From positions 1-64,000 of the forward strand of contig KB906739.1 of the NCBI GenBank assembly GCA_000381585.1: 64,000 bases of DNA. Reading direction: 5' to 3'. Source of the stretch: Acidobacteriaceae bacterium KBS 83. Its GTDB lineage: Bacteria > Acidobacteriota > Terriglobia > Terriglobales > Acidobacteriaceae. Both the position numbers and the translations under genes were made by a program. The notes under the pieces are model-generated. The model had not been told where the DNA came from and ran no database searches. It saw only the letters and a program-made list of their open reading frames with translations. This document shows, in pieces, positions 20,093 to 35,306 of this stretch (positions are counted from its first letter, which is position 1; every line of letters begins with the position of its first letter).

Positions 20093-21521
20093 TCAAGGAC
20101 GACTGTGCACGATCACCGCGCTGCAAGGCGGTAAGAGTACCTCGCGTGTGACCGGTTCCGCTTCCGCTAGACTCCATTTCCCGCCTCCATCTACACGGGC
20201 TCCGCCCAACGTGATATCGACTTTGCTTTCGGGGGAAGGAGCCGCGAGACGAATGGAGGAAGCATTACGAAGGGGCACGTCCAACAGTGAGATACGCATC
20301 GGCTGGCCCAAGGTCCTGTTGATCAGTACAACGCACTGGATGCTGCGTGCCTGTCCGAGAGCGTAGAAGGACGCCTGTTTGGGAGCCGGACCAGAGTGGA
20401 GAGGAAAGACGCCTGAATTCGCACTTCTGGCCATTGCGAATGCAAGCATTCCGTAATAACTCGCTCCGGCTGTGCATTGCCCTGCGTTTGTCATTCCGGA
20501 TAGGCGAATACGAACTCAAGAACCCGAGCTGATTGAAGCCGGTTTCGATGTTGACGCCGGCGCACCCGGATTGTGCAAGGAGGAGCATGTAATCCAATGT
20601 CCATAGCGAAGCGGCAAATGTATCGCTCAAACCCGGTCGGCCCCCTCCGAAAAACGAATTCGTCTCGCACATGCGCCAGGGGACACCGGAACGCATGGAT
20701 GCGCGGTGCAGGCGTTCCAGCTTCGCTGTCAGTCCCGGGTCGGGAGACATGAGCTGATCAAGCGTTGCCTGCTTCTGGCCGCCACGATAGTAGTGGGTTG
20801 TGAGCAACTGCACATCTCCACGCGCGTCAGCCGCTATCTGTTCGACCCACTCCACCGATCCGGCTGTGTCGGGAGCGGCAAACGAGAGTCTCGGATCTGC
20901 CGTAAGGATAGCCGACCGCCAACGGTCGTATTCCGCCCGGAACTCCGCGAAGACGTAGGGGGGCTTCCGCAACGGTTCTGCTCCTCGTCCGTAATTCTCA
21001 ACCTCGTTGCCTAGTTCGATCGCTAATAGCCGATCGCCGAGAGCCTCTTTCACGGCTCGCACTTCAACGAGAGCCTGTTCAAGTGTGCCTCTGCCAAAGT
21101 TCACGCTCCATATCGCAGTCCAGCCGACCGCATCCAGAAACCCACGCAGCTGTTGCAGACACGCGCGCGTGATAACGGTCCTTTTCGGCTCGGCCGCCGC
21201 TGTTCCCGTGTCAGAGTAACTCGTGAAGTCTGCCACGATGCCCCCGACACGTACGACTCCTTCACGGCCCAGATTGCGGACAAGCTGTATATTAGGAGCG
21301 TTCAGGCTACTGAGAAGACCCGGTTGGGCAACAGAGGACATCTCGTATCCCAGCCCGACGAAGTTTTGCGGTATAGGGGCTACGCTCGTTCCAGGCACCA
21401 CACGAACTTGGATGGACGGATGATGCGCCCCAAAGGCGCGCTCCAGCGCTGTAGTAGCGGAGATGGCGAGCGCAGACCGAAGTAGCTTTCGACGAGTTAG
21501 CATGCAGTCTCGTAAGTTCAA
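20093..21521 (-). pseudogene. GH79-like exported glycosidase, frameshifted near its C-terminus
   Basis: The N-terminus MLTRRKLLRSALAISATTAL is a twin-arginine-like export signal. The body resembles family GH79 (beta-glucuronidase/heparanase type): the acid/base region IELGNEVENYG and the nucleophile region MCETNSFFGGGRPGLSDTFA. After SSYSPI (about 20490) the frame is lost. The other frame continues in register as TNAGQCTAGASYYGMLAFAM and runs to a stop at 20093, giving the usual small beta-domain. Read as one gene it would be about 475 residues. A single one-base shift could be a recent mutation or a sequencing error. The unshifted protein of 418 residues would lack a proper beta-domain. Confidence 0.7.
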
Positions 21522-21911: not shown

Positions 21912-24140
21912 CTACTCGAAGCGCGACGGATCCACCGTCATCGAAGCCGGCGGCAAGGTTTTCTCCTGCGAGCCCAGCGATGTGTTCGGCCTATCGCCCA
22001 TCGTCAGTTCTAGCGTGCCGCCATTCGCCACGTCGTTGTGCTCGATCCAAAGGCGGTCCAGTGCCTTGCCATTCCAGCGGATGCTCTGCACATACTTGTT
22101 GTCGCCTGAAGAAGCGGGTGCGGCAATCACAAACTCTTTGCCGTTCTTCAGGTGGATCGTCACCTTCGTAAACACCGGGCTGGCGACGTCATACACCGGC
22201 ACACCGGGCATCACCGGATAGATCCCCATCATCGAGAAGACAACGAACGCGCTTAACCCGCCGCCATCCTCATCACCCGGAATCCCTTGCAGATCATCGC
22301 GAAAATAGGCATCCAGGATCGTGCGGATGCGTTTCTGTGTCTTCCACGGCGCACCCAGCCGGTCGTAGATGTATGGGATGTTTAGGCTCGGCTCGTTCGC
22401 CATCGAGAATTGCCCGATCATCGAGGTTGAATCCGGAAACTTCGCCTGGAACTCATAACGCGAACGCCCCAGTGGCTCGCGGAACAACTGGTCCAGGTTC
22501 GCCTCCGCCTTCGCCTTGCCGCCCATCAGCGTGAACAGTCCGTCGTAGTCATGTGCCACGTCCCACGTGTACGTCCAGCCATTGTTCTCGTCGTAGTACT
22601 CGCGGCCGCCCAATCCACCGCCGAACTTCGCGTCCATCGGTTCAATCCAGTTGCCCTGGTCATCCTTGGGCCACATTAGCGACTTGTCCGCGCGATACAG
22701 GTTGCGGTAGTTCGCTGCACGCTTCAGAAACAGCGCACGGTCCTCCGGCTTGTGCAGCACACCGGCAAGTTGCGCAATGCACCAGTCATCTGTGCTGTTC
22801 TCCAGCGTCACCGGCACTGGCTGCCGCTTCTCAAACGGGTGCACCTCCGCAACCGTCTCCTTCTCACCCGGCCGCAGTGCGGGCATGTAGCCATGTGCGC
22901 TGTAGAAGTCATCCAGCACCGTCTTCGGACCAAGCCGCCACGGTAGCATCGTTTGCTCCAGCGATCGCTTGCGCAGCCCCTCATACGCCACCGGCAGATC
23001 GAAGTTGCGCACACCCTTGTTCCACGCGTCCGCAATCCAGGGCGCGGCATGGTTGCCGTTCATGATGGCCGCTGGACCAGACGCGAGCGCGAACGTCGGC
23101 ATGATGCCGCCCTGCTGATACATCCGCACATACGACTGGATCTTATCCGCCTGCATGTCCGGATTCAGCAGCGTCTGCAACGGCTCCATCGCACGAAACG
23201 TATCCCACAGCCAGTTGTCCACGTAAAACGGCCGCGCATCCTCATGCACCCTGTGGTCAAAGCCGCTGTAGTAGCGGCCGTCCTCAGTGATGTTGATCAT
23301 GCGCTCCATGCAGCGATAGAGCGCCGTATAGAAGACGCGCCGCTGCGCCGGCGTCCCACCGTCCACCACAATGCGACCCAGCGCATCGTTCCACTGCGCA
23401 CGCGCATTCTCCTTCACGCGCTCCAGTCCCCACTCGGGAATCTCGCGCAGCAGGTTCTTCTTCGCCTGCTCTACGCTGATGAACGAGACACCGTAGCGGA
23501 AGTCAAGCACATTCGCTCCGCTAGCCGACAGCGTAACTTGATCGCGATCCTCCCCGTGCGCTGTCTCTGCCGACACAGGCTCGCTCGTCTCTGCATAGAA
23601 GTAGGCGGTCATTCCCATGACGCTCTCTTCGCCTGCGACCGCGTTCTTTGCCACAGCATGCAGCGAACCTGGGTTCAGATTCTTCACCTGCAACTCCGCT
23701 CTGCCGCTCGGAAAGCTGAAGCGGAAGTAGCCAGCCTGGTGGGCTGGCGCAAATTCGGTCAGAATCATCGATTCATCGAACCGCGTCGAGTAGAAGTAAG
23801 GCGTTGCATGCTCCGCGTCATAGGCCGCGGGCTTGTCACCGCTAGGCAGCACCGCAAACAACTCCGGCTGCCGATGCGAAAGAATTGTGAGGGGGAAGTA
23901 TTGGATCTGGTCATCCAGCGCATCCTTGCGCATGGGATACATCCGCACCATGCTGTTTGGCAGATACGCCGTGGGCCGCGTCGGCTCCAGCAGGATGCTG
24001 ACATTACCGATGGTCGGATCCACCTCATCAACCGGCCCCTGCGCACGCATCGATGCGCACACGCCCAAGGCGGTCACGACAGCTACAGCAAGACGAATAC
24101 CACGCAAACGCAACGCGACCAAGCTCAACTCCTGTGTCAT
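21912..24140 (-). CDS. GH92 family alpha-mannosidase, exported
   Basis: 742 residues from ATG 24140; an in-frame start at 24233 adds a non-signal extension and is less likely. The N-terminus has a hydrophobic signal ending around ASMRAQGPVDEVDPTIG. GH92 enzymes are calcium-dependent exo-alpha-mannosidases, mostly acting on N-glycan-type mannose linkages. The family's C-terminal (alpha/alpha)6 domain is seen in FYTALYRCMERMINITEDGR, DNWLWDTFRAMEPL, STDDWCIAQLAG and the acidic GIPGDEDGGGLSAFVVFSMM segment that holds catalytic residues. It lies downstream of the PQQ dehydrogenase with a 150-base gap, on the same strand. Confidence 0.9.
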   Translation of the reverse strand: MTQELSLVALRLRGIRLAVAVVTALGVCASMRAQGPVDEVDPTIGNVSILLEPTRPTAYLPNSMVRMYPMRKDALDDQIQYFPLTILSHRQPELFAVLPSGDKPAAYDAEHATPYFYSTRFDESMILTEFAPAHQAGYFRFSFPSGRAELQVKNLNPGSLHAVAKNAVAGEESVMGMTAYFYAETSEPVSAETAHGEDRDQVTLSASGANVLDFRYGVSFISVEQAKKNLLREIPEWGLERVKENARAQWNDALGRIVVDGGTPAQRRVFYTALYRCMERMINITEDGRYYSGFDHRVHEDARPFYVDNWLWDTFRAMEPLQTLLNPDMQADKIQSYVRMYQQGGIMPTFALASGPAAIMNGNHAAPWIADAWNKGVRNFDLPVAYEGLRKRSLEQTMLPWRLGPKTVLDDFYSAHGYMPALRPGEKETVAEVHPFEKRQPVPVTLENSTDDWCIAQLAGVLHKPEDRALFLKRAANYRNLYRADKSLMWPKDDQGNWIEPMDAKFGGGLGGREYYDENNGWTYTWDVAHDYDGLFTLMGGKAKAEANLDQLFREPLGRSRYEFQAKFPDSTSMIGQFSMANEPSLNIPYIYDRLGAPWKTQKRIRTILDAYFRDDLQGIPGDEDGGGLSAFVVFSMMGIYPVMPGVPVYDVASPVFTKVTIHLKNGKEFVIAAPASSGDNKYVQSIRWNGKALDRLWIEHNDVANGGTLELTMGDRPNTSLGSQEKTLPPASMTVDPSRFE

Positions 24141-24293
24141 TTTCAGAGCACGACGCACACGCACACCACAAATGCCGAGTCTATCGCGTCCACCCGCGCA
24201 GCTCAGTGAGTAAGTTGCTCCTGGTATCGCCAACCGAGAAGTGAAGAGAAAGTGCCCGAGGTGGCGACTTCCTTATTCAAATAGCTGCCCGAT

Positions 24294-25946
24294 TCACTCC
24301 GGCAACGCAAAACTGAACAGATCGACGCCTGAGGCGATGGCGACGTACTGTTTACCCCCGACCGCATAGCTCATCGGAGATGCGTGAAGAGTTTGGCCGG
24401 TGTTAAAGTGCCACAACGATTTGCCGGTCTTGGCATCCGCCGCCTCAAAAAAATTTGCGTCATCGGCGAAAAAGACAAGACCGGTCGCAGTTGTCATGAC
24501 GCCACCCCAAGAATGAGAATCCCCTGCTTGCGGGTAGCGCCATGCAATAGTCTTCGTTTGGGGATCGAAGGAAAGAAGGACCCGTTGCGTTTTGTCGTTT
24601 GGATCGTGCTTGGTTCCCGTTGAGTAATACCCTCGGCCCTCTTCAAATGGGGCTGGTTTTACAAAATACACCGAGCAACCCTCAAAAGCCAAAAAGTAGA
24701 ACAAGTGTGTCGCTTCGCTATAAGAAGGCGAGAACCAGTTGGTAGCACCTACAACGCCGGGACAAATTAGGGTTCCATCCGGGGTCGGCTTCAAATCCGT
24801 AACAATCGGACGACCATTGGCGTCCACTCCTGTCGCCCAATTGATCTTCTTTGCAAATGGTGTGGCCGATAGGAATTTTCCATTGGTTCGGTCAAGGAGA
24901 TAGATAAACCCATTTCGGTTTGCCTCGATCAGAAGCTTTCTCGGTTTTCCCTGATATTGCATGTCTACCAGGACGGGGGTCTCCACACCATCGTAGTCAT
25001 ATAGATCATGCGGTGTGAATTGGAAGTACCATTTCAATTTTCCGGTATCCGGATCGATCGCCAGTAGACTTGCGGTGTAAAGGTCGTCGCCGGGACGGAC
25101 GCTGCCATCGTAGTCTGGCGCTGCGTTGCTGGTGCCCCAGTATATGGTATTCAGCTCTGGATCATATGTTCCCGGCATCCAGGTTGTCCCACCACCGTGC
25201 AGATAACTATCTCCAGGCCAGCTTGAAGAGCCGAATTCTCCTGGGCCGGGAATCGTCCACAGACGCCATGCTAACTTGCCGGATGTAGAGTCGTAGGCAG
25301 CAAGAAAGCCGCGAACTCCGTCGTCGCCGCCTGAGGTTCCTACCAGTACTTTGTCTTTTACGATCAGTGGGGCACTCGTAGCTCCGTAGTTCTTGTTCCA
25401 GTCGGCGTATGCCACGTCCCAGATCAGGTTTCCCGATCGTGCGTCCAGGCACAAGAGGTGGGCATTGTCGGTTTCCATGTAAAGTCGCGTGCCCAAGAGA
25501 GCGACGCCGCGGCTGATATGCCCGGAGGCGTCATCGATCAAGCCCTGAGAGACCGGCCGAGAATAGTGCCACAGGATCTGCCCGGTTTGCGCATTGAGGG
25601 CATATGCATCATTGGAAGCCGTGACGTACATGATCCCATTGACAACCACCGGGGTAACTTCAAGAATGCCGGCATTTCTGCTGTGGAAGACCCATTGAGC
25701 CTGAAAATGTCTGACATTTTGTGGCGTGATTTGCGTAAGGCTGCTAAAGCGCCTTCCTGTGTAATCACCGTTGTAAGAAGGCCAGTCGTCTTTAATCGTT
25801 CGAGAGAGCAGTTGTGAGGCTTGTACGCCTGGCGCACGTACAAGGGATGGTTCACTATCCTGCCCGCGCAAGGGAATAGACAAGGTATACGCGCATACGG
25901 CGATTAGCCATCTCCTTTTTAGCCTCATGCGGTCAGCGTCCTTCAT
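24294..25946 (-). CDS. PQQ-dependent (quinoprotein) alcohol/sugar dehydrogenase, exported, with a D-x-D metal-site signature
   Basis: 550 residues. A short signal (WLIAVCAYTLSIPLRGQ) is followed by the eight-bladed PQQ propeller, starting DDWPSYNGDYTGRRFSSLTQ. Metal and PQQ landmarks are N274 in YWGTSNAAPDYD and D317/D319 in TPHDLYDYDG. In the methanol dehydrogenase family the catalytic Asp is followed two residues later by Ala in calcium enzymes and by Asp in lanthanide (XoxF-type) enzymes, so D317-Y-D319 suggests lanthanide use. The vicinal Cys pair of MxaF/XoxF is replaced (DDASGHISRG). There is no fused haem domain; electrons would need a separate cytochrome, and a dihaem one is encoded 4 kb upstream in the same block. 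It overlaps the DUF4380 gene by 14 bases. Confidence 0.9.
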   Translation of the reverse strand: MKDADRMRLKRRWLIAVCAYTLSIPLRGQDSEPSLVRAPGVQASQLLSRTIKDDWPSYNGDYTGRRFSSLTQITPQNVRHFQAQWVFHSRNAGILEVTPVVVNGIMYVTASNDAYALNAQTGQILWHYSRPVSQGLIDDASGHISRGVALLGTRLYMETDNAHLLCLDARSGNLIWDVAYADWNKNYGATSAPLIVKDKVLVGTSGGDDGVRGFLAAYDSTSGKLAWRLWTIPGPGEFGSSSWPGDSYLHGGGTTWMPGTYDPELNTIYWGTSNAAPDYDGSVRPGDDLYTASLLAIDPDTGKLKWYFQFTPHDLYDYDGVETPVLVDMQYQGKPRKLLIEANRNGFIYLLDRTNGKFLSATPFAKKINWATGVDANGRPIVTDLKPTPDGTLICPGVVGATNWFSPSYSEATHLFYFLAFEGCSVYFVKPAPFEEGRGYYSTGTKHDPNDKTQRVLLSFDPQTKTIAWRYPQAGDSHSWGGVMTTATGLVFFADDANFFEAADAKTGKSLWHFNTGQTLHASPMSYAVGGKQYVAIASGVDLFSFALPE

Positions 25947-27309
25947 CCCTTCCAGTTACAAATACCTCCCCGAGAGCTCCGCGATCGAGGCCGCTGCTAT
26001 CGATCAAGTGAACCGAGACTCGCGCCACGCTCTTAGTCGGGGTTATCGTTTGTGAGAGCTGAACCTGGTCTTGCGGTTGAACCGATTGGAGGTAAACCTG
26101 CCCCGTCTCTGCGCCACCTTCATCATAAAGATATGCCTTCAGCGTGCCCGGGAAGAAGACGCCAAAACTGCCCGAAAGCTCAAGCTTCCCGGCACTGTTC
26201 TTTGCAACGAGAGGTCGACCTACCAAGCCTGCGTCGGTAACGGTTTTCAAGTCAGGGCTCATGCGTGACGGAAACCAGTAGGTATCCATTGCGTATGTTT
26301 CGCCGGGTGTCAAGACCGCCATAGGGCTGTTAAGTTCTGCCTCCATATAGTAGGGAGTCTCTTTAAGGTTTTTCGAAGTCAGGTAGGGCATACCCTGCGC
26401 ATTCAGTTGCACAGTCGGTCCGTTCTTGTAGAAGATAACCGAAGCCTTTCCGGGATAATCTGCACCCACGATGTACCTCGACTTCTCGACCATCGCATAG
26501 TGAGTTGTGCCATCGACCAACGCAATCCAACCAGCGGTTGAGTCGAGCCACACCTCGTTTTCGAGGTATCTCCAATTTAGCCGAAAGAGCCCATCCTTTA
26601 CGCTAAAAGAGGGATCATTAGCCAGCCCATCGCGGACATGGTAGCCGTTCAAATATGAGGAGCGGGGATTGAGCGGCGCAAAGGCCCAAAAGTCGTGATT
26701 GTACTGGTTGGGGTCTCTGGCGTCGGACAGGTCATACTGAGAGACGGACTGCACAGACCAGGCGATCGAGTAGCCCGTGATGTTCTTGGTAATCGCATGA
26801 AAGAAGATTTCAGGGGAGTCGCTGCCGATACTTATCTCACGCGTGTATTGAAGGCCCGTAGGCGGATCCGGGGGGCCCTCCAACCGCACTGTGCAGCGAG
26901 TGTTTTGTGACAGAATCAAGAAGGCATATGCGCCGTCGTCAAGAGGAGTGGAAGCTCCTGTCCAGTGCTGTTCGTCATCATTGCCTTCGGGTAAGGGCCA
27001 AATCTTGTCGCCACCATAGTTGATCCAACGGCCCGCAGCCTCGGCCGGAGCAATGTACTTGCCTTTGTAAACCTCGTTGACGAATAAATAGGGGTGTCCA
27101 TTGAAACTGATCTGCATCAGCCGGCCGCCCAACTGAGGAACAAAGGTCAACTTCACCCATTCATTCGCTACCTCCTGGGCTTGCCAACCGTCGAAGACTA
27201 CTGCATGAATTTGACATGAAGACGATGGAGTGGGTGTGGACTGCTGAGCACTCGCCGAGGAGACAACTAGAGCAAAGGCAAGGAAGGAGCCGACTGCAGT
27301 TAATTTCAT
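25933..27309 (-). CDS. Exported DUF4380-like protein
   Basis: 458 residues with a signal peptide (MKLTAVGSFLAFALVVSSAS, cleavage near SAQQ). The core is a beta-rich, galactose-mutarotase-like fold: VKLTFVPQLGGRLMQISFNG, GRWINYGGDKIWPLPEG, then the strand pattern YTREISIGSDSPEIFFHAIT. Proteins of this kind (DUF4380) are found with carbohydrate-acting enzymes and may bind or interconvert sugars; no activity is established. Its 3' end overlaps the start of the PQQ dehydrogenase, so the two are probably translated together. Confidence 0.75.
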   Translation of the reverse strand: MKLTAVGSFLAFALVVSSASAQQSTPTPSSSCQIHAVVFDGWQAQEVANEWVKLTFVPQLGGRLMQISFNGHPYLFVNEVYKGKYIAPAEAAGRWINYGGDKIWPLPEGNDDEQHWTGASTPLDDGAYAFLILSQNTRCTVRLEGPPDPPTGLQYTREISIGSDSPEIFFHAITKNITGYSIAWSVQSVSQYDLSDARDPNQYNHDFWAFAPLNPRSSYLNGYHVRDGLANDPSFSVKDGLFRLNWRYLENEVWLDSTAGWIALVDGTTHYAMVEKSRYIVGADYPGKASVIFYKNGPTVQLNAQGMPYLTSKNLKETPYYMEAELNSPMAVLTPGETYAMDTYWFPSRMSPDLKTVTDAGLVGRPLVAKNSAGKLELSGSFGVFFPGTLKAYLYDEGGAETGQVYLQSVQPQDQVQLSQTITPTKSVARVSVHLIDSSGLDRGALGEVFVTGRDEGR

Positions 27310-27404
27310 CTATGCGCCCCCTCGTTCAACAGAATATTTTCGTGTGAATCGATCGTGATGAGAGTCGGCCGCCCTCCCTTCGGCTCCATCCGTGGCCCAG
27401 GGAA

Positions 27405-28679
27405 CTAGTTGCCCGGTCTTGTGCGAATGCCTTTGGCCGCTTGGCCGGTGGGTGGGCGCTTTACCGCGATGAAGGAGATTTGCTCGGCGGCCTCATTGTG
27501 CACTTCGAAGTTCTGCTGCAGCACCGATCTGGCAGGATAACGGCCCTCAAAAAACTTACCGTATATCGCGTTCACTCGATCGGCGTCCTGTATCTGTCGC
27601 AAATAGACGGTAGTGGAAACAACATCGGAGAAATCCATGTCAGCTTCTTGCAATCCATCCAAGAGATTGCGCATGGACTGCCGCAGCTGCAGCTCCAGGT
27701 CGGGCGTGACAATTCCTTGATCCGGAATGAAGCCATCTTTAGCAGAAAGATATAGCGTGTCGCCATAGAGAATGCCCGGGCTGGCGGTGGGGCTGGGGGA
27801 CATATTTCTTGGCCGGATCGCTTTGCGTTTACTGAGGTCTGCTCCGGCGATGCAACTAAATACAATGTGATTCCCTTTAGGGAGACCGACGACTTGGATG
27901 GTCCCGCGGCCCGGTGTATTGCCGAATTCAAAATAAGTCGCGTAGATCTTGCCCATAACGTCGTATTGCCCACCGACGCTCATGTAGGGATTCACCCATA
28001 GAACATTCTTCATGCTTACCCGAGCAGCCTTGAGCACGGTACTTACATTATCGAGAGCTTGCCTGACTTCTCCCGGAAAGTCCGACGCTTGTCTCCCCGT
28101 GAGCGGATTCCGACCACCCTGCGCCGACAGATACATGATTTCACCTGCCCGGATTGCAGGCGGATCCACGTGCGGGCCTCGCGCCCAGCCTGTTGGCCAA
28201 ATCGCTTCTCTGTGAATCGTGTCTGCCACGGCAATGCAGTTGATTTCTACTTTTTCCCCATCCGGAAGAGCGGCAACCGTGAGAACAGTCCGCGCGGGAG
28301 GGTTTTGGCCGATTGTCTGCCAATAAACCTCATTCATGCCTGCCACGTCCTGCCCATCGGTGAGATAGATGTTCATCCAAACAACATTTCCAAAAATCAT
28401 GCTTGCACTCTTCAGCACAGCCTGGACGTTGCTTAGGGCCTGCGCGACTTGTTCTGCGAACCGCGCTGGACGTGTGCCGTCGGGTTTACGGCTTCCTTGA
28501 CCGGATATGTAGAGCGTGCCCCTGCTCAGAATGCCAGGACTGTAGAACAAATCGGCAGCTGCATCGCGTTGCGGTTCAATGACTTTGAATCGGGAGTCTT
28601 GGGCAACGAGGTTGAGCCCGAACGCGCAGAACAGAAAGCAGGCAAAGAATGGAACGCTGCGCTTGAACCGATCGGTCAT
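27405..28679 (-). CDS. Exported protein of three tandem RidA (YjgF/UK114) domains
   Basis: 424 residues. Residues 1-27 are a signal peptide (FFACFLFCAFGLNLVAQ). Three RidA domains follow at about 34-154, 158-282 and 287-407. RidA hydrolyses enamine/imine intermediates released by PLP enzymes, and the single-domain protein works as a homotrimer with active sites between subunits. The arginine that binds the substrate carboxylate (R105 in E. coli) is conserved in each unit: R130 in NPPARTVL, R258 in NTPGRGTI and R384 in YPARSVL. Three linked domains could fold as a one-chain pseudo-trimer. RidA proteins are normally cytosolic; this one should be periplasmic. It lies 16 bases downstream of the SMP-30-like gene. 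Confidence 0.85.
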   Translation of the reverse strand: MTDRFKRSVPFFACFLFCAFGLNLVAQDSRFKVIEPQRDAAADLFYSPGILSRGTLYISGQGSRKPDGTRPARFAEQVAQALSNVQAVLKSASMIFGNVVWMNIYLTDGQDVAGMNEVYWQTIGQNPPARTVLTVAALPDGEKVEINCIAVADTIHREAIWPTGWARGPHVDPPAIRAGEIMYLSAQGGRNPLTGRQASDFPGEVRQALDNVSTVLKAARVSMKNVLWVNPYMSVGGQYDVMGKIYATYFEFGNTPGRGTIQVVGLPKGNHIVFSCIAGADLSKRKAIRPRNMSPSPTASPGILYGDTLYLSAKDGFIPDQGIVTPDLELQLRQSMRNLLDGLQEADMDFSDVVSTTVYLRQIQDADRVNAIYGKFFEGRYPARSVLQQNFEVHNEAAEQISFIAVKRPPTGQAAKGIRTRPGN

Positions 28680-28694
28680 TTCTCCTCCGGAAGA

Positions 28695-29726
28695 TTAGTG
28701 CGCTTGTAGGTAGGGGACGAATCCGTGTGCTCGGGTCCTTAGTTTGTATACGGATGTCGTTGCTGTTATGTACAAGGTTGAGTAGTCGGGGTCTCCCCAT
28801 GCGAGATTTGCCGGCTGCTCGGGAACTATGACGGTCCCCAGATGAAGGCCATTCGGGGACCATACCCATATACCCCTTGGACCTACCACATACAGATTGC
28901 CATTTCGATCAATCTTCATGCCGTCTGGTACACCGTCCTCTGGGCCACCTGGCTCTGTACCGAAGATCCGTCCGTTGCTCAATCTACCATTCGCGTTTAA
29001 GTCGTACACGTGGATATTTCGCTCGGTGGAGTCATCAACATACAACTTGGTGCCGTCTGGAGAAAACGCGAGCCCATTCGGATCTTCCAGCTCCTTTGTC
29101 AGCAGTTGAAGTTGACCGTCCAGAGCGATGCGATAGACGCCTTTAAATGAGAGTTCCTGCTTTTGCCCACGAGGCAAGTCGGCAGTTGGATCAGTAAAGT
29201 AAATAGCGCCATCCGGACCGACCACCACGTCGTTGGGACTGTTCAAACGCTTGCCTTGGTAATGATCCACGACTATTTTGTAACTCTTGCCATCGGGCGA
29301 CAGACGGATGATCGCCCGCAGAACGCTGGCACAGTCTAAAAGACGATGTTGTGGATCATAAGTATTGCCATCGGGGTCGCCGAGAGAGATGATTTCCCGT
29401 TTCTGACCGGTGGAAGTGTTTACCTTGAAAATTTTGTTGACAGTTTCATCGCTCACCCAGAGATAACCGGAGCTATCCCAAACAGGCCCCTCCGTAAAAC
29501 CGAAGCCAGAAGCCAACTTCGTCAGCTGTGCTTTTCGATCAAATAGAGTCCAAAACTCGGGTGTAATAGCCTGAAGTTCGAACGCCACCTTGTTCGTTTC
29601 TCCATGACCTAGGCGATGGGCCGGTCCGGCAATCAGCAGCAAGGCCAAAGCGGTTATCGCAACCTTGAGAATGACGATGTTTAACCACGAGTGCTTGGAG
29701 CGAAAGGATAAGTGATTATTCGTCAT
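28695..29726 (-). CDS. SMP-30/gluconolactonase-like beta-propeller hydrolase, membrane-anchored or exported
   Basis: 343 residues from ATG 29726, which lies inside the end of the cytochrome gene (overlap 29716-29726), implying coupled translation. One hydrophobic segment (IVILKVAITALALLLIAG) near residue 20 exports or anchors it. The SMP-30 propeller follows: GFTEGPVWDSSGYLWVSD, LNSPNDVVVGPDGAIYFTDP, DPNGLAFSPDGTKLYVDDS and PDGMKIDRNGNLYV. The metal ligands expected in the family (E in the EGPVW strand, N in NSPNDV, D in the later SPDG strand region) are present. Members hydrolyse sugar lactones such as gluconolactone. This fits a step after the PQQ dehydrogenase. Confidence 0.85.
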   Translation of the reverse strand: MTNNHLSFRSKHSWLNIVILKVAITALALLLIAGPAHRLGHGETNKVAFELQAITPEFWTLFDRKAQLTKLASGFGFTEGPVWDSSGYLWVSDETVNKIFKVNTSTGQKREIISLGDPDGNTYDPQHRLLDCASVLRAIIRLSPDGKSYKIVVDHYQGKRLNSPNDVVVGPDGAIYFTDPTADLPRGQKQELSFKGVYRIALDGQLQLLTKELEDPNGLAFSPDGTKLYVDDSTERNIHVYDLNANGRLSNGRIFGTEPGGPEDGVPDGMKIDRNGNLYVVGPRGIWVWSPNGLHLGTVIVPEQPANLAWGDPDYSTLYITATTSVYKLRTRAHGFVPYLQAH

Positions 29727-30558
29727 CGCGGTCAGATTTTGAAGATTGTGTTGGGGAGCGCTTGGAATTTTCGCTTCCCACATGAAGGAGATAGCTGACC
29801 AGGTCATTTATCTGTTCGTCATTCAAAGTCGCTCCGTAGTTGGCCGGCATCAGCGAGTAAGACCCGAGATCTATGTGGGTGAGTTGTGACTTCTGAAAAA
29901 AAAGAAAGTTCCCGTCCATTGTCTGGATCGAAACGGAAAAATTATCGTCCACCTTGAGCATTCCAGTGAACTTTTGTCCTGTGTGCGACACGACGGTTGT
30001 AGCTTTCTTCTGGGGAGGCAAATTCTTTTCAGGATCCACAACCACGCTTCGGATCTGGCCAGCGCTTTCCGCCGCTCCGTAAAGCGAAAGATCACTGCCA
30101 ATAAAGCCACCTTTCCCATTGACCATATGGCACTCTGAGCATCGCGCTCTGCCAAAGAAAAGAGCTTCTCCGCTCTTCGGGTTTCCGGGAAGCTTGATGT
30201 CGATTTGCCCCCTTTGCAGAGTTCGTAAATATTGAACAATAGAGGTCAATTTTTCTTGGCCGAGCCAGCCGAAGGCCGGCATACCAGTCCCGGCGACTCC
30301 ATTTTTCGCGATCGCAATCAGGTCCGAGTCCGCGAGTCGCTGCACGTCAGAATCAGTTGCGATATCCGGCCCGTGTTCACCCCCGCGGCCATCGGACCCG
30401 TGACAGCTCCCGCAGTTGGAGGCGAAGAGCATCGACCCTTGAACATCCGCTGCAGTAGTAGTGCTTGCCGGTTGTTGTGCGCGCAGATTCGTGATCGATG
30501 CCAATCCAAGCAGCACACATCGGATGGAGATCACGTGCCACCACCTCATCATTCGCAA
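29716..30558 (-). CDS. Exported dihaem cytochrome c
   Basis: 280 residues with an N-terminal signal (CVLLGLASITNLRAQ). Two CxxCH haem sites are seen: CGSCH at residues 49-53 and CSECH at 140-144. Axial Met candidates are in TGMPAFGW and SLMPANYG. Between haem 2 and the end, the pattern VVVDPEKNLPPQKKATTVV and GMLKVDDNFSVSIQTMDG is that of the haem-binding domain common in Acidobacteria, Planctomycetes and Verrucomicrobia sugar-oxidising clusters. It is the likely electron acceptor for the PQQ dehydrogenase of the same block. Its last codons overlap the start of the SMP-30-like gene. Confidence 0.88.
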   Translation of the reverse strand: MRMMRWWHVISIRCVLLGLASITNLRAQQPASTTTAADVQGSMLFASNCGSCHGSDGRGGEHGPDIATDSDVQRLADSDLIAIAKNGVAGTGMPAFGWLGQEKLTSIVQYLRTLQRGQIDIKLPGNPKSGEALFFGRARCSECHMVNGKGGFIGSDLSLYGAAESAGQIRSVVVDPEKNLPPQKKATTVVSHTGQKFTGMLKVDDNFSVSIQTMDGNFLFFQKSQLTHIDLGSYSLMPANYGATLNDEQINDLVSYLLHVGSENSKRSPTQSSKSDRDDE

Positions 30559-30615
30559 AGACCTCTTTCAGCGTTCGATACCCACTGTGCCAGCACCAAG
30601 CTCGCACCCGGAGCC

Positions 30616-31590
30616 TTAGTGTTCTGCGCCTATTTGCACCATACCCGGATACCACGAGCGCACGGCGAGAATACGTGATTTGACGTTGGCTGCACTGTAA
30701 TATCCGACAGTGCAATTGAGCCGGAAGAAATAGGCATCCCCCGCTTTGGCCGGATGCCGTCCTACGATTCCGTCCATTCCGCTCCCTGCGACCATCACGC
30801 CGTGGCCGCTCAAGACCAGGTAAATCTCCTCTTCGCGCTCGTGGTGATGAGGAAAGTTAGTACCGCCTGGTGCGATTTCCATCAGGAAGAGGCTGGTCAA
30901 AACGCGGCCGGCTGCAATGCGGTCGCGCTTACTGTCGACATCCCCCATCAGCAGACGGTAACGAGTCGAATCAGGGTGGCCGCTCACCGTAGCTGTCGGC
31001 ACACCCTCGATGTTGGCCTTTAGAGGCTGTGGCGATGGCTGAGTTTTCTCAAAGCCCTTAGTACGAAAACCCATAATTATCACGGTTAGTTGCATGTCAG
31101 ACTTATTGCTCAGAGCGTGCGCAATCGTTGATGGAATATATAAGTAGTCTTCTTTCTTAAGTGAGACGAATGTATCTCCGTACTTCACGGAGCCCGTGCC
31201 TTCGAGCACCACGTACACTTGGTCTTCGTCTGGATATTGAACAGAACCGCAGAAGCCATTCGGATCAATCACCACTTCTCCATAACGTGCCACCCCGACG
31301 ACTACAGACGTAACTGAGTCTCCCTGGCCGAACAACGGCCGGTAGTGGCACGTCTTCGTCGTAATATCTGACTTCTTTTCCCCGACTGCAGAAGTGTCAC
31401 GATGAAGATAAGTGGGATCGATCTTGCGATCGTTCGCGTGGAGCAGAGGTGCGCAGAAAATTACTATGAGCAGAGCGACGATCCCGACGACATGGCGTCG
31501 GCTGTCTGCCCCATGGCATATTGCGATCAAAGAAGGTCTCTCGGGGTTTAGGTATCTGTTCACTGCATTCGACCTACCTGAATCCGGCAA
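30616..31590 (-). CDS. Exported bicupin protein
   Basis: 324 residues. A hydrophobic stretch (VVGIVALLIVIFCAPLLHA) around residues 34-52 serves as signal or anchor. Two cupin domains follow. The first has QYPDEDQVYVVLEGTGSVKY and LYIPSTIAHALSNKS. The second has APGGTNFPHHHEREEEIYLV, with the H-x-H-x4-E metal motif intact, and GDAYFFRLNC. The first domain keeps a His in IPSTIAHAL but has lost the HxH pair. Cupins of this kind can be isomerases or dioxygenases of sugar acids; the reaction is not readable. It lies between the PLP enzyme (44 bases) and the cytochrome (57 bases). Confidence 0.82.
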   Translation of the reverse strand: MPDSGRSNAVNRYLNPERPSLIAICHGADSRRHVVGIVALLIVIFCAPLLHANDRKIDPTYLHRDTSAVGEKKSDITTKTCHYRPLFGQGDSVTSVVVGVARYGEVVIDPNGFCGSVQYPDEDQVYVVLEGTGSVKYGDTFVSLKKEDYLYIPSTIAHALSNKSDMQLTVIIMGFRTKGFEKTQPSPQPLKANIEGVPTATVSGHPDSTRYRLLMGDVDSKRDRIAAGRVLTSLFLMEIAPGGTNFPHHHEREEEIYLVLSGHGVMVAGSGMDGIVGRHPAKAGDAYFFRLNCTVGYYSAANVKSRILAVRSWYPGMVQIGAEH

Positions 31591-31634
31591 ATCACGTGTT
31601 TTGGGACTGCGTTTTTATAGGCTGAAGAATGCAC

Positions 31635-32936
31635 TTACGCCGATTGTTTGCGGGCTTTGTCAAGAATCTGACGTAGGCGATTCCCAACCGTCAGATCTTC
31701 CCCCGGCTGTAAGGTCATTGAGACAATTTGCAACTCATTCGGAGGTGCCTCCTCTTTTGCCTTGGGGTCATCGCCTTCGCGGACCGCGGGCACTCCACTT
31801 GGATTATTGTTCGTGAGCACCTCAATACGGGGTTCGCCCTCCCGTAGCTGTTGAGCGCATTGGTCCACCGTCAAGCCGAACCGCAGCACGTCCCACTTTA
31901 CCGTCAGGGTCGGATAGCTGTTCTCTTCTTGAGGGATCGTGATGGATGTAGTGACTCCTGGTACGGTCTGCACCAACTTCTGGATGCGTTCAACCCGGCT
32001 CTGCCACTCTTTATTTAGGGCCGCGAGATCCGCCTTGGACCAATAGTCGACTGCTGCAAGAATCCCTATAATCTCTTCTTTGCCGACCTTCATGGGCCGA
32101 CATACGGCGCCCTCCCATGGATTGTTATTTGCCATTGCCGCATCGATCAGGTCCTTCCGGCCTAGCAGCACCCCAGAGCATTGCGGACCACCCAAACCCT
32201 TTCCGCCGCTAAAGCAATAAAGATCGACGCCGATCTTTGCGTAGCGTCTGAAATTCTCAAACGGAGGAATGCCTGCCGCATCGTCCAGCAGCAGCGGGAC
32301 GCCGGCGGCGCGCGTTATCTTCAACGCATGCGGTAAGCGGTCGTCCCGCCAGGTTGTATAGACCATGGCGGTTTGCGGAGTAATGGCCGACTGCAGATTG
32401 TCCACTCCATGAGCAAGCACCAATCGGCCTCCGGCGAGGCGTATCGCACTGTCGAACGCGCTCCGCCCTCCCAGCATCACGACTTCATGTTTCAAACCGG
32501 TCGTGTCGGGCAGTTGCCACACATTTTTTGGATCGGTCCCGGCGATGCAGCCCGCAGTCGCCAGAGCCATCGCGCCCGCCGAGCCAGACGTGACCATTCC
32601 GGATTCGGCACCGGAAAGTTCCGCAAGCCTTTCGCCTACTGCCCGCTGCAGCTCAAACAAGTCGACAAATTGTCGCGATGCAGCCTCGACCGCTTGCCGC
32701 ACTCCCGGCAGTTCCAGTGACCCGCTCAGATAAGTCCACGTCCCCCGAGCATTGATCAATGGCCTGACCCCAAGGCGGGTATAAACATCGGCAGAGGAAG
32801 ACCTTCCTGTAGTAGTCGCCACAGTGCTCGCAAGACTTCGAGAGGCAATGGTGGCGAAGAGAGGAGCAGCGGCAAGCATTTTAAGGAAAGAACGCCGATC
32901 ATTCAGGCTATTTTTGAGCTCACGCTCGGGCAGCAT
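31635..32936 (-). CDS. Tat-exported PLP-dependent enzyme of the SelA/DgaE (ammonia-lyase) type
   Basis: 433 residues. The N-terminus has a twin-arginine signal: RRSFLKMLAAAPLFATIAS. The fold-type I body has the SelA-like pattern YTRLGVRPLINARGTWTYL, GERLAELSGAESGMVTSGSA, the pyridine-binding Asp pair in PLLLDDAAG (D218/D219) and the Schiff-base lysine K246 in CFSGGKGLGGPQCSG. Relatives include selenocysteine synthase SelA and D-glucosaminate-6-phosphate ammonia-lyase DgaE, which eliminate water and ammonia from amino sugar acids. Export by Tat suits a protein that must fold around its cofactor first. It heads the block that includes RidA, lactonase and PQQ dehydrogenase. The substrate is inferred, not shown. 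Confidence 0.87.
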   Translation of the reverse strand: MLPERELKNSLNDRRSFLKMLAAAPLFATIASRSLASTVATTTGRSSSADVYTRLGVRPLINARGTWTYLSGSLELPGVRQAVEAASRQFVDLFELQRAVGERLAELSGAESGMVTSGSAGAMALATAGCIAGTDPKNVWQLPDTTGLKHEVVMLGGRSAFDSAIRLAGGRLVLAHGVDNLQSAITPQTAMVYTTWRDDRLPHALKITRAAGVPLLLDDAAGIPPFENFRRYAKIGVDLYCFSGGKGLGGPQCSGVLLGRKDLIDAAMANNNPWEGAVCRPMKVGKEEIIGILAAVDYWSKADLAALNKEWQSRVERIQKLVQTVPGVTTSITIPQEENSYPTLTVKWDVLRFGLTVDQCAQQLREGEPRIEVLTNNNPSGVPAVREGDDPKAKEEAPPNELQIVSMTLQPGEDLTVGNRLRQILDKARKQSA

Positions 32937-33054
32937 AATGTTCCTTTCCTACTGCAGCTGCCCCCAGGCCCGCTGGTCGTTGTACACGCAGAGTCGTGAT
33001 CGATTCTTCCGACAGCTTGATCATATGCACCAGAGTCCTGTTATGAGAGTGAGG

Positions 33055-34941
33055 TCAGGCCTGAACTCTGTTCCACGGCGCGAAGGCATTTTTCACGCCC
33101 TCGAGGCTAGGTTCGAGCCTGGGAAAATGCCTCAACAAAACTGAACTCATGGTGTTGTCACGGATCCAGTCCATGCCAGTCTTGCTGTACACGTCTTCCG
33201 TGAAGTCATCAGTAAAGAACCGGTCACTGTTTAACCGGCGCGACGCCATCAAGACGAAGATACGGAAGGCTGTATCGCTGAATCCGAATCCCTTCGGAGG
33301 AGTCTCTGCGAATAAACCGATGATCAGATCCACGCGTTCGATATCACCAGCGTAGACGCGGCGGATTTCCTCGCGCCAAGCCGCGTTATCGGTCAGTTCC
33401 TCAAAGGTGCGCACTGGACGCAGATGCAGCGCTTCGCGAAATTTGGTGTACCGCGGCACTCCCAGTTCTCTGCAGCGCATAATGTCGTGCGCCGCCAGGT
33501 CAATGAGCACCCCGTCAGGCCGAGTAAATTGCTGCAGAGCGCGAGGATAGTTGTGCAGCGTGACCGCACCTGGATGCATCACGCCGAAAGAATAAAATAA
33601 GTCCGTGATGTTCACGCTGTCACAGATATGTTGTGCTGAATTGCCGGCAATTTCCTGGAATTTCAGCTGCTCAAGCTGACGGCCATCGCTGGCGGACCAA
33701 AATGTGATGTCGTCCGGGATAAGAGGGTGCATACGATATACCGCGACGAACTCTTCGGTGAGCGAGTAAGGCACGCCGTAGTGGTCCGCCGCGGACCCGG
33801 GAATGCCACTCACCAACTCACTTCCACTCAGCCGGCCAAACAGGTTTTTGATCGTCTCGCCTGCAAGCCCCCACCAGTTCGCGCGCATTCCAATCTGCAA
33901 CGCCGGATGCCCAAGAATGGCTGTGGTCCACTCGACTGTGTGGATCTTCGCCAGGAGCGCCGCATTCACCAGACGTGCATGTTCGAAGAGTTCGTCATCG
34001 TTCCATCGTGGATTTGCCGCCTTCAACGCGTCACAGATTGCATTGTGCTCCAACGTGAACAGCGTAAAGAGCATCTCCAGTCCCACCCACCATCCCGCCA
34101 ACGCCGCGCTTTGCATCTGCACGAGCGCCTGCGCATCCGGGTGCACCAGATGGTCTTTGCCCAATTTCAGTTTTCCGTCTACACCCGAACGTACGTTGTT
34201 CCGGTACTTCACATTGCTTCCGTATAGCTGGGATGCATCCCACCAATGGGTCTCTGTATTGATATACGTCGATGGTGTGCCGACATCCGCGCGCGTGCGC
34301 GTGGGATCCCGCATGGTTCTCATCACTTTCATGTCCGATTGCGGCCATGTGTCGTTTTCTGCCAGCGGGATCATCCACGGGTCGTCCTTCACACTTTGCC
34401 CATGACTGAACCAGTCACGGATCTGAAACTGCAGCCAACTTGCCGCAAGAAGGTTCAATGTCGTTGCAGGTGTAAAGGTGTGGCGCGTCATCAATTCTCG
34501 GCTCACCACACGGGGGCTTGGCGTCATTATGGCCGGCATAGCTTCTTGCCATGTCTCAGCCAGCCGGGCGTTTCGACCGAAGCGCGTCCCGGCGCTCCCC
34601 ATAAATGGGCACTTCAGATCGTTCGACGTCCCATCCTCCGTACGCCATCTTTTTACATTTCCATGCGTGGGTAGCGGATTATCGGCCGTCACCTGCGGCA
34701 CTCCAGTGTCGTATAGGTTGTTTTTGCGCAATGTATTCCGAACGCCTACCAGCGTGAGGAGTCCTCCAACCGTCGGTAAGTTGCTCCAGCCGACTCGCTG
34801 GTCCAGACAGGTGCAAGCATCATCGAAAAGATCTCCCAGCTTCCGCTTGACCTCCGGACGACGCAGAACCTTTACCAGCAAGAACGCAGCAGCAAAGCCA
34901 CTAGCTATCAGTGTCGGAGTGAGGGATTTTCTTTTGCTCAA
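33055..34941 (-). CDS. Haem peroxidase of the fatty-acid alpha-dioxygenase/cyclooxygenase type
   Basis: 628 residues from a TTG start at 34941, chosen because AAGGAGG lies six bases before it; an upstream ATG at 34980 has no such site. An N-terminal hydrophobic helix (LIASGFAAAFLLVKVL) anchors it. The animal-haem-peroxidase domain includes THWWDASQLYGSN and EFVAVYRMHPLIPDDI. The latter carries the Tyr-x-x-His pair of alpha-dioxygenases and cyclooxygenases (catalytic Tyr402, proximal His405). These enzymes add O2 to fatty acids, giving hydroperoxides. The distal-His segment, usually QFxxHDW, reads QFQIRDW here, with Arg175 in the His position. That could alter or abolish activity. Confidence 0.82.
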   Translation of the reverse strand: MSKRKSLTPTLIASGFAAAFLLVKVLRRPEVKRKLGDLFDDACTCLDQRVGWSNLPTVGGLLTLVGVRNTLRKNNLYDTGVPQVTADNPLPTHGNVKRWRTEDGTSNDLKCPFMGSAGTRFGRNARLAETWQEAMPAIMTPSPRVVSRELMTRHTFTPATTLNLLAASWLQFQIRDWFSHGQSVKDDPWMIPLAENDTWPQSDMKVMRTMRDPTRTRADVGTPSTYINTETHWWDASQLYGSNVKYRNNVRSGVDGKLKLGKDHLVHPDAQALVQMQSAALAGWWVGLEMLFTLFTLEHNAICDALKAANPRWNDDELFEHARLVNAALLAKIHTVEWTTAILGHPALQIGMRANWWGLAGETIKNLFGRLSGSELVSGIPGSAADHYGVPYSLTEEFVAVYRMHPLIPDDITFWSASDGRQLEQLKFQEIAGNSAQHICDSVNITDLFYSFGVMHPGAVTLHNYPRALQQFTRPDGVLIDLAAHDIMRCRELGVPRYTKFREALHLRPVRTFEELTDNAAWREEIRRVYAGDIERVDLIIGLFAETPPKGFGFSDTAFRIFVLMASRRLNSDRFFTDDFTEDVYSKTGMDWIRDNTMSSVLLRHFPRLEPSLEGVKNAFAPWNRVQA

Positions 34942-35306
34942 AATGAGCCTCCTTGGCAAAGCAGCGTTCAGGGGGATCATTCTAGGCTTCGGCTTCAGCC
35001 AAGTGGAAGATTTCTCTCATCAGCCGCAGTGAAAGCTCCGTGGCCGTAGCTAATGTCCGACAAGGCCTGGGCTCCAGCGAGTGCACACCAATTCATTGTT
35101 TCCCGTGCGCGAGGAACATGGATGTCTTTGCGAAAATCCTGACTCTGGGCAGGGCAGGTTCGGTTCAACGGTAAATGGAGGCGGTTCCTCCGTCGGCATA
35201 CCGTTTCTGAGGTGTCCGTTTCGGTCACTCTTCTATCTATGCATCTTTAGAAGTATTAGATTAGAGGCCCAGGCGCTACAAATTTCGTCGCGCGCAGGGA
35301 GGGATC
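34942..35306. other. Divergent intergenic region upstream of the alpha-dioxygenase-like gene
   Basis: About 365 bases between the starts of two divergent genes, so it should hold both promoters. No convincing promoter pair or palindrome was picked out by eye. Confidence 0.4.

Follow-up and report, generated by a model that had tools for sequence, protein, structure and literature searches.

A patchily distributed acidobacterial gene cassette that may break down amino sugars outside the cytoplasm

We analysed a 64,000-nucleotide stretch of DNA (the window) from contig KB906739.1 of Acidobacteriaceae bacterium KBS 83 (GCA_000381585.1; genome G000 in our set). Window positions 24294–32936 hold seven open reading frames (ORFs), all on the minus strand, which make up the cassette described here. 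They encode, in order, a pyridoxal-phosphate (PLP) enzyme, a bicupin, a dihaem cytochrome c, an SMP-30 protein, a protein with three RidA domains (RidA3), a DUF4380 protein and a pyrroloquinoline quinone (PQQ) dehydrogenase (Table 1). An earlier reading of the same DNA (the original prediction) had named these seven genes and families, and searches with Pfam and NCBIfam bear it out, the DUF4380 match lying just below its cut-off. The two overlapping junctions that it reported are also present, at 25933–25946 (DUF4380 and PQQ dehydrogenase) and 29716–29807 (cytochrome c and SMP-30) as the ORFs are called; if the SMP-30 protein starts at a later methionine, about 11 bases of the second overlap remain. 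In scans for promoters and terminators, the counts did not clearly exceed those in shuffled sequence (8 versus 6.2 and 9 versus 9.0, respectively).

Table 1 Features of the cassette in the window
Feature	Position	Strand	Basis
PLP enzyme, SelA/DgaE-like, with Tat-type signal; predicted amino-aldonate ammonia-lyase (Lys246, Asp218, Arg260)	31635..32936	-	Pfam/NCBIfam, alignment, structure model
Bicupin; hydrophobic segment at the N terminus, metal-type motif in the C-terminal cupin	30616..31590	-	Cupin_2, two stretches; start codon uncertain
Dihaem cytochrome c, predicted electron acceptor (CBB3-type domain and TIGR02603 haem-binding domain)	29716..30558	-	Domain matches, CxxCH motifs
SMP-30/gluconolactonase-like protein; anchor or signal at the N terminus	28695..29807	-	PF08450
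Protein with three RidA domains and Sec-type signal	27405..28679	-	Three PF01042 stretches
DUF4380-like protein; Sec-type signal, and a predicted fold like that of galactose mutarotases	25933..27309	-	Sub-cut-off PF14315 match and fold search
PQQ-type dehydrogenase, methanol/ethanol family	24294..25946	-	TIGR03075
Extent of cassette common to another genus at 91–93% nucleotide identity; ends are gene boundaries	24291..33004	.	blastn

All seven proteins carry a putative export signal or membrane anchor, as had been claimed. The N terminus of the PLP enzyme (NDRRSFLKMLAAAPL) is of the twin-arginine translocation (Tat) type, TatC is encoded in G000, and each of the six remaining proteins has a hydrophobic N-terminal segment. 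All signal assignments were made from motif and hydropathy, with no trained predictor behind them. The RRx[FLVMY] motif recurs in 86 of 92 PLP sequences, and a hydrophobic segment is found in 40 of 53 RidA3 homologues, 21 of 33 for DUF4380, 34 of 41 for the PQQ dehydrogenase, 23 of 28 for the bicupin, 14 of 17 for SMP-30 and 23 of 29 for the cytochrome; because these counts fall below their totals, some homologues fail this crude export test.

SelA-like PLP enzymes are of fold type I, and the cassette enzyme exceeds the Pfam cut-offs for Aminotran_5 (30.2 bits) and SelA (29 bits). It scores below the cut-offs of two DgaE families (147.9 versus 385.3 bits for TIGR01437 and 140.8 versus 600 for NF047797), which, together with the residues replaced in its active site, rules out membership of DgaE proper. 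The description ‘DgaE-type’ in the original prediction is therefore loose, given the family scores and the missing histidines; the enzyme is also no closer to DgaE than to the oxygenase Cap15. With DgaE it shares fold and family and retains the catalytic lysine, aspartate and carboxylate-binding arginine; it differs in being exported and in having replaced both loop histidines and two phosphate-binding arginines. In an alignment of 77 orthologues, from which matches that were broken or shorter than 400 residues were excluded, Lys213 of DgaE (K246 in the window) and Asp189 (D218) are kept in all 77 and Arg226 (R260) in 76. The numbering is that of the DgaE chain used here, in which the lysine of the SGAK motif is residue 213; PMC9529869 writes the catalytic lysine as Lys-217.

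The substrate phosphate of DgaE is described there as surrounded by Arg-301, Arg-332 and Arg-346 (PMC9529869). Arg-301 is found in only 2 of the 77 orthologues and Arg-332 in none (T343 and L374 in the window), counts that cover these two positions because Arg-346 falls outside the alignment. With these two phosphate-binding arginines replaced, an unphosphorylated substrate is probable for the exported enzymes, and the original claim of a route without phosphorylation fits this comparison of active sites. His162 of DgaE occurs in none of the 77 and His163 in one; the window enzyme has D198 and D199, and position 163 is aspartate or glutamate in 69 orthologues. In the same account, DgaE H163A releases an enamine (PMC9529869), which offers a reason for a RidA partner of PLP enzymes that lack the histidine. 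The exported enzymes may likewise release enamine; we had considered the missing His163 as proof of this and keep it as a prediction only, in view of the acid at that position.

In RidA3, PF01042 matches three stretches (183.4 bits; cut-off, 27.3), each with the substrate-type arginine that we take to be Arg105 of RidA (R130, R258 and R384); among 40 aligned proteins, from which matches that were broken or shorter than 300 residues were excluded, it is present in 39, 40 and 25 for the three domains. The SMP-30 protein (PF08450, 158.9 bits; cut-off, 26.3) has EGP, LNSPND and DG stretches, presumably holding metal ligands, that align with the putative gluconolactonases 3e5z and 3dr2. The cytochrome c has two CxxCH motifs, at residues 49 and 140. 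The bicupin profile gave weak matches to assorted cupins only (best E 2.3e-06), and G243, T244, N245, P247, H248–H250 and E254–E255 are invariant in 20 of 20 aligned sequences. For the DUF4380 protein (PF14315, 27.6 bits; cut-off, 29.4), a sequence profile found no solved relative (best E 0.082) and the fold search alone gave relatives: the model (predicted local distance difference test (pLDDT) score, 87.2) matches 3mwx, a galactose mutarotase, best (E 8.6e-13; template-modelling (TM) score, 0.59 by target length; root-mean-square deviation, 7.1). The PQQ dehydrogenase passes TIGR03075 (504.8 bits; cut-off, 480.05). What we take to be its PQQ site (tryptophan, asparagine, both aspartates, arginine and Asn-Trp) is invariant in all 35 aligned proteins, the window protein included and 7 shorter matches excluded, and a further aspartate lies two residues past the catalytic one, presumably the lanthanide-type pattern.

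Recurrence of the neighbourhood in relatives had been named beforehand as one of the points that could refute the original prediction, and the neighbourhood does recur. In a set of 150 relatives that includes our own genome, PLP-family matches at E ≤ 1e-15 occur in 33; a clear PLP orthologue is present in 15, one of them a fragment, RidA3 in 16, and both in 14. A PLP-family gene is found no more than 10 kb from RidA3 in 11 of 16 cases, and from DUF4380 in 15 of 26 matches. Hypergeometric co-occurrence values are 1e-16 for RidA3 and 6e-10 for DUF4380, and ignore relatedness. A further 79 named PLP-orthologue loci, taken from the best 80 hits of a search, represent 68 assemblies; by title, 76 of the loci belong to Acidobacteriota groups and 3 to Proteobacteria. 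Some share genomes with loci of the 150-relative set (for example, L105 and L044), so the counts are not independent. L105, from Paracidobacterium acidisoli 4G-K13, has matches to six of the seven cassette families, the bicupin being the one without a match. By tblastn, these 79 loci contain RidA3 in 49 cases (44 with at least 200 residues), the PQQ dehydrogenase in 40, DUF4380 in 33, the bicupin and the cytochrome in 28 each, and SMP-30 in 18. Gene order and strand differ between loci. Also present are an outer-membrane barrel (36), a major facilitator superfamily (MFS) transporter (22), an RraA-like aldolase (11), a NagB-like protein (7), a galactonate-dehydratase-like protein (5) and, at some related loci, a deacetylase-family gene; one NagB-like protein compared with the PDB gave 12 matches, all glucosamine-6-phosphate deaminases or isomerases.

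The same tblastn search of 20 arbitrary 20-kb control loci from eight genomes found no RidA3, PQQ dehydrogenase, DUF4380, bicupin, cytochrome, deacetylase or RraA. SMP-30, dihydrodipicolinate synthase (DHDPS)-like and galactonate-dehydratase-like genes each appeared at 1 control locus, the barrel at 2 and the MFS transporter at 4. The transporter was consequently dropped as evidence, and the barrel, SMP-30, DHDPS-like and galactonate-dehydratase-like genes are, because of their presence in controls, weaker evidence than RidA3, PQQ or DUF4380. A looser profile search of the controls gave cytochrome c at 2 of 20 and RraA at 1 of 20, all below 100 bits. Partners were scored by tblastn and stop-to-stop profile scans; simple ORF calls, which fell on the wrong strand in loci rich in guanine and cytosine (GC) such as L041, L056 and L058, were not used.

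Beyond recurring, the cassette looks recently transferred. Window positions 24291–33004 match a 19.9-kb locus in a genome of another genus (L039 in G070) in three consecutive blastn pieces at 90.6–92.7% nucleotide identity, with no further blastn match between that locus and the window, and a second locus (L063) matches 24273–33000 in two pieces at 91.8–93.3%. Both ends of the shared block are gene boundaries. At another locus common to G000 and G070, nine protein pairs are 51–76% identical (one lactonase-like pair, 29%), so that a block 91–93% identical in DNA suggests recent transfer. The GC content at third codon positions is 0.55–0.61 in the cassette, below that of most flanking genes. As judged from these alignments, the cassette is a real unit.

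The genes around the shared block differ. In L039 and L063 the PLP gene is preceded by an outer-membrane barrel of the carboxypeptidase-regulatory kind (PF25183 and PF13620), which we take to be TonB-receptor-like; in the window this position is occupied by a haem peroxidase. That animal-type peroxidase (33055–34980, 361 bits) lies upstream of the cassette and outside the transferred block, as does a long protein (37687–41094) whose cytochrome c domain is RoxA-like. Just downstream on the same strand, also outside the block, is a GH92 glycosidase (21912–24233, 511 bits). At 20093–21521 lies a protein with a Tat-like signal that is 27% identical to a protein of L039; it appears to be split over two frames near 20265–20494, by a frame break or a sequencing error, and the longer piece has no Pfam match.

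Paralogues of the PLP enzyme (about 36–48% identical) extend the pattern. At 46 paralogue loci we found, counting profile scores of at least 100 bits, RidA at 18, a deacetylase at 14, RraA at 12 and the PQQ dehydrogenase at 12, with none of these in the controls. Six of the loci (L053–L058) were picked by hand; the other 40 give RidA 14, deacetylase 11, PQQ 12 and RraA 9. One of the paralogue loci is in our own genome, at G000:C5:649557-667160 (L183, L053), and is common to a genome of the same genus at 66–97% protein identity. It has a PLP–RidA–PLP trio with Tat-type signals, and its order is KDPG (2-keto-3-deoxy-6-phosphogluconate) aldolase, PfkB kinase, barrel, lactonase-like protein, berberine-bridge FAD protein, deacetylase-family amidohydrolase, MFS transporter, histidine kinase, response-regulator-like ORF, RraA-like protein, PLP, RidA and PLP. 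The aldolase (185.6 bits; cut-off, 156) and the amidohydrolase (394.8 versus 371 for PRK09237; 210.3 versus 432 for the EF_0837 model) each exceed a cut-off. The best models for the kinase are a KDPG-aldolase/kinase fusion (271.5 versus 700) and 2-keto-3-deoxygluconate (KDG) kinase (153.6 versus 440), both below cut-off. The lactonase-like protein has a Tat-type signal and scores 21.2 bits against a cut-off of 21.7; the FAD protein has no visible signal. This second locus reads as a fuller version of the cassette idea. Another locus, L148, unites DUF4380, PQQ, PLP, RidA, RraA, kinase, KDPG aldolase and MFS genes. The keto-deoxy acid product that the original prediction proposed thus gains support from the KDG-kinase-like proteins and KDPG aldolases at some related loci; the deacetylase-family and NagB-like proteins support the pathway interpretation more generally. 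Near the PLP orthologue of L043 (G140:C17:401000-420900), proteins of the DHDPS and UxuA families and of the enolase superfamily have Tat-like N termini; these sugar-acid enzymes look exported.

The closest described parallel is the ong pathway of marine bacteria that use oxidized chitin. There OngC turns glucosaminate into KDG and ammonia, and growth on N-acetylglucosaminate (GlcNAc1A) depends on OngC and equally on a deacetylase, on a RidA protein and on a KDG kinase (PMC9537276). Both the deacetylase and the deaminase (OngB and OngC) are predicted to be cytoplasmic, and OngC is of fold type III (PMC9537276). Deacetylase, PLP glucosaminate deaminase, RidA, KDG kinase and TonB-dependent uptake are the points of likeness; the acidobacterial set differs in having a SelA-like PLP enzyme with a Tat-type signal, a quinoprotein, a lactonase-like protein and a triple RidA. 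All four of the first-named gene types are present at G000:C5, three of them (PLP, RidA and kinase) at L148, and only two (PLP and RidA) in the window cassette. RutC is a member of the Rid superfamily. Chitin clusters of Natrarchaeobius combine a DgaE homologue, a glucose dehydrogenase, a galactonate dehydratase and a RutC-family protein (PMC12343721). They resemble the cassette in joining a sugar dehydrogenase to DgaE-like and RutC proteins, galactonate-dehydratase-like genes being present at some loci here as well; they differ in being archaeal and in the kind of dehydrogenase, and in the published account the proposed route is phosphorylated and RutC is described as a repressor (PMC12343721). 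The main text of that paper does not contain the term ‘signal peptide’.

The statement in the original prediction that no pathway with PLP and RidA chemistry in the periplasm was known does not stand as worded, on two counts. PvdN belongs to a different PLP subfamily from the cassette enzyme. It is described as a periplasmic PLP enzyme of Pseudomonas that modifies pyoverdine in an O2-dependent reaction (PMC6411801), so periplasmic PLP enzymes have a precedent. The likeness is a PLP enzyme working in the periplasm, as proposed here; the differences are the need for O2 and that the passage of PMC6411801 available to us mentions no RidA. A pairing of PLP and RidA is also on record, in the ong pathway, where growth requires a RidA protein alongside the glucosaminate deaminase, itself predicted to be cytoplasmic (PMC9537276). 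At the level of titles and abstracts, with few subscription papers covered, literature on acidobacterial RidA and PLP enzymes, periplasmic imines, Tat-exported sugar-acid enzymes and glucosaminate ammonia-lyase left the present system undescribed.

We propose, as an even call, that the cassette is a laterally transferred set that breaks down an amino sugar, or the corresponding acid, outside the cytoplasm and without phosphorylation. Gene content, export-type N termini, co-occurrence, transfer as one block and conserved catalytic residues can be read from the sequence; which substrate is used, in what order the steps run and what each protein does are our inference. The mutarotase-like DUF4380 protein would supply the right anomer; the quinoprotein would oxidize C1 and pass electrons to the dihaem cytochrome c; and opening of the lactone by SMP-30 would give a 2-amino-2-deoxy-aldonate. 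From this, the Tat-exported PLP enzyme would remove water and release an enamine or imine, which the triple RidA would hydrolyse to a 2-keto-3-deoxy-aldonate and ammonia. The keto acid would enter the cell to meet a KDG-type kinase and KDPG aldolase.

Several observations weigh against this proposal, among them the lack in G000 of PqqC and PqqE above cut-off and the unconserved metal-ligand position of the PQQ site, both detailed below. The cassette is patchy in distribution; in a sample of the phylum, the PLP orthologue was found at E ≤ 1e-100 in 1 of 396 genomes, our own. None of the six partners is present at 21 of the 79 orthologue loci, or at 9 of the 41 that are at least 16 kb long, and in a wider profile set 8 of these 9 also lack matches to RidA, deacetylase, KDG kinase and KDPG aldolase; the exception is L069, with two RidA genes, two PLP genes and one KDPG-aldolase homologue. 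The PLP enzyme therefore exists outside the pathway too. Twelve paralogue loci of one family (f9; in G110, G118, G125, G132, G138 and G144) have no RidA, deacetylase or PQQ match beside the PLP gene, which implies other roles in the wider exported PLP family, and homologues of the kinase or the KDPG aldolase occur at only 4 of 139 loci searched. On the chemical side, the acid at position 199 of the PLP enzyme could itself act as a proton donor, and the second acidic residue of archetypal RidA, which we take to be Glu120, has no glutamate counterpart in any RidA domain among the 40 proteins aligned (N147, S275 and S402 in the window; one aspartate among the 40, in domain 1).

The loci without sugar genes near their PLP orthologues and paralogues, which are many, would suit an exported enzyme that deaminates free β-hydroxy amino acids such as d-serine and d-threonine, with a separate substrate, arriving alongside, handled by the sugar-like genes. 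RidA classically acts on enamines derived from serine and threonine. OngC, too, accepts d-serine and d-threonine besides glucosaminate in the account cited above (PMC9537276). We nevertheless judge this explanation unlikely, because the recurring partners are of sugar type (SMP-30, the mutarotase-like DUF4380 and PQQ), as are the NagB-like and galactonate-dehydratase-like proteins counted above and the UxuA-like, KDG-kinase-like or KDPG-aldolase proteins at single loci. About as improbable, in our view, is that the aldonate part works as proposed while the PQQ-type protein is cofactor-free or a scavenger here, and the starting point of the cassette is an amino-sugar acid produced elsewhere. 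G000, which is 99% complete, has no PqqC above cut-off (best 52 bits; cut-off, 240) and no PqqE at E 1e-40, and of the 14 genomes with the cassette or an orthologue, the same 5 have both above cut-off. In this strain PQQ would then have to be supplied externally, or else the protein may lack its cofactor. The protein is related to the acido-empty-quinoproteins (group A, TIGR04528), although it scores 546.7 bits against their cut-off of 650; on these proteins no paper was found in literature that covered few subscription papers. None of the 35 aligned proteins has a cysteine at either position of the vicinal pair, and what we take to be the metal-ligand glutamate is variously S, D, Y, E or C, the adjacent position being D or E in all 35; this neighbouring residue may serve as the ligand. 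Against an empty protein stand the invariant PQQ site and the presence of PqqC and PqqE in those five genomes, and many bacteria take up PQQ from outside. The PQQ step of the original prediction thus keeps its family assignment and is doubtful in this strain.

A good deal less probable is a role for the PLP enzyme in tailoring some secreted compound, as an oxygenase or decarboxylase that depends on O2. The substrate of Cap15 is a β-hydroxy α-amino acid. This enzyme (8t7j; parts of PMC6384614 and PMC6411801) acts in antibiotic synthesis as an oxygenase-decarboxylase rather than as an ammonia-lyase, and is the nearest solved homologue both by phmmer (125.7 bits, versus 109.5 for DgaE) and by fold, in which our model (mean pLDDT 88.7) matches it with a TM score, by target length, of 0.87, versus 0.83 for DgaE (7lc0). 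That an O2-using enzyme should also score 205.7 bits by profile, next to 205.1 for DgaE, is a further point against our proposal, and PvdN shows O2-using PLP chemistry in the periplasm. The recurring neighbours, however, are of catabolic rather than biosynthetic families, and RidA, deacetylase, kinase and aldolase suit elimination chemistry. Least probable by far is that unrelated exported genes lie together by chance, as variable order and strand might suggest; recurrence in rearranged order, the absence of six partner types from the 20 control loci and transfer as one block led us to rule chance clustering out. Our best reading, at about even balance, is that the cassette represents known glucosaminate catabolism in a new variant, shifted out of the cytoplasm, and to that extent the original pathway interpretation is supported in part.

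A broader extension seems to us somewhat more doubtful than that: Acidobacteriota may possess a full envelope pathway for amino-sugar acids, in which Tat-exported SelA-type ammonia-lyases that lack the protonating histidine of DgaE release enamines, exported RidA proteins clear them, and the keto acid is imported or cleaved by exported aldolases. PLP elimination and Rid chemistry would then both take place in the periplasm and spread by mobile cassettes. The cassette offers a clean test of the pairing of Rid proteins with PLP lyases, as its enzymes naturally lack the histidine of DgaE (the mutant of which is described as releasing enamine; PMC9529869) and are often accompanied by RidA. If the proposal is right, a nitrogen-releasing sugar pathway that has been described in the cytoplasm would also run outside it in soil bacteria, which would bear on the release of ammonia from chitin and cell-wall amino sugars in soil.

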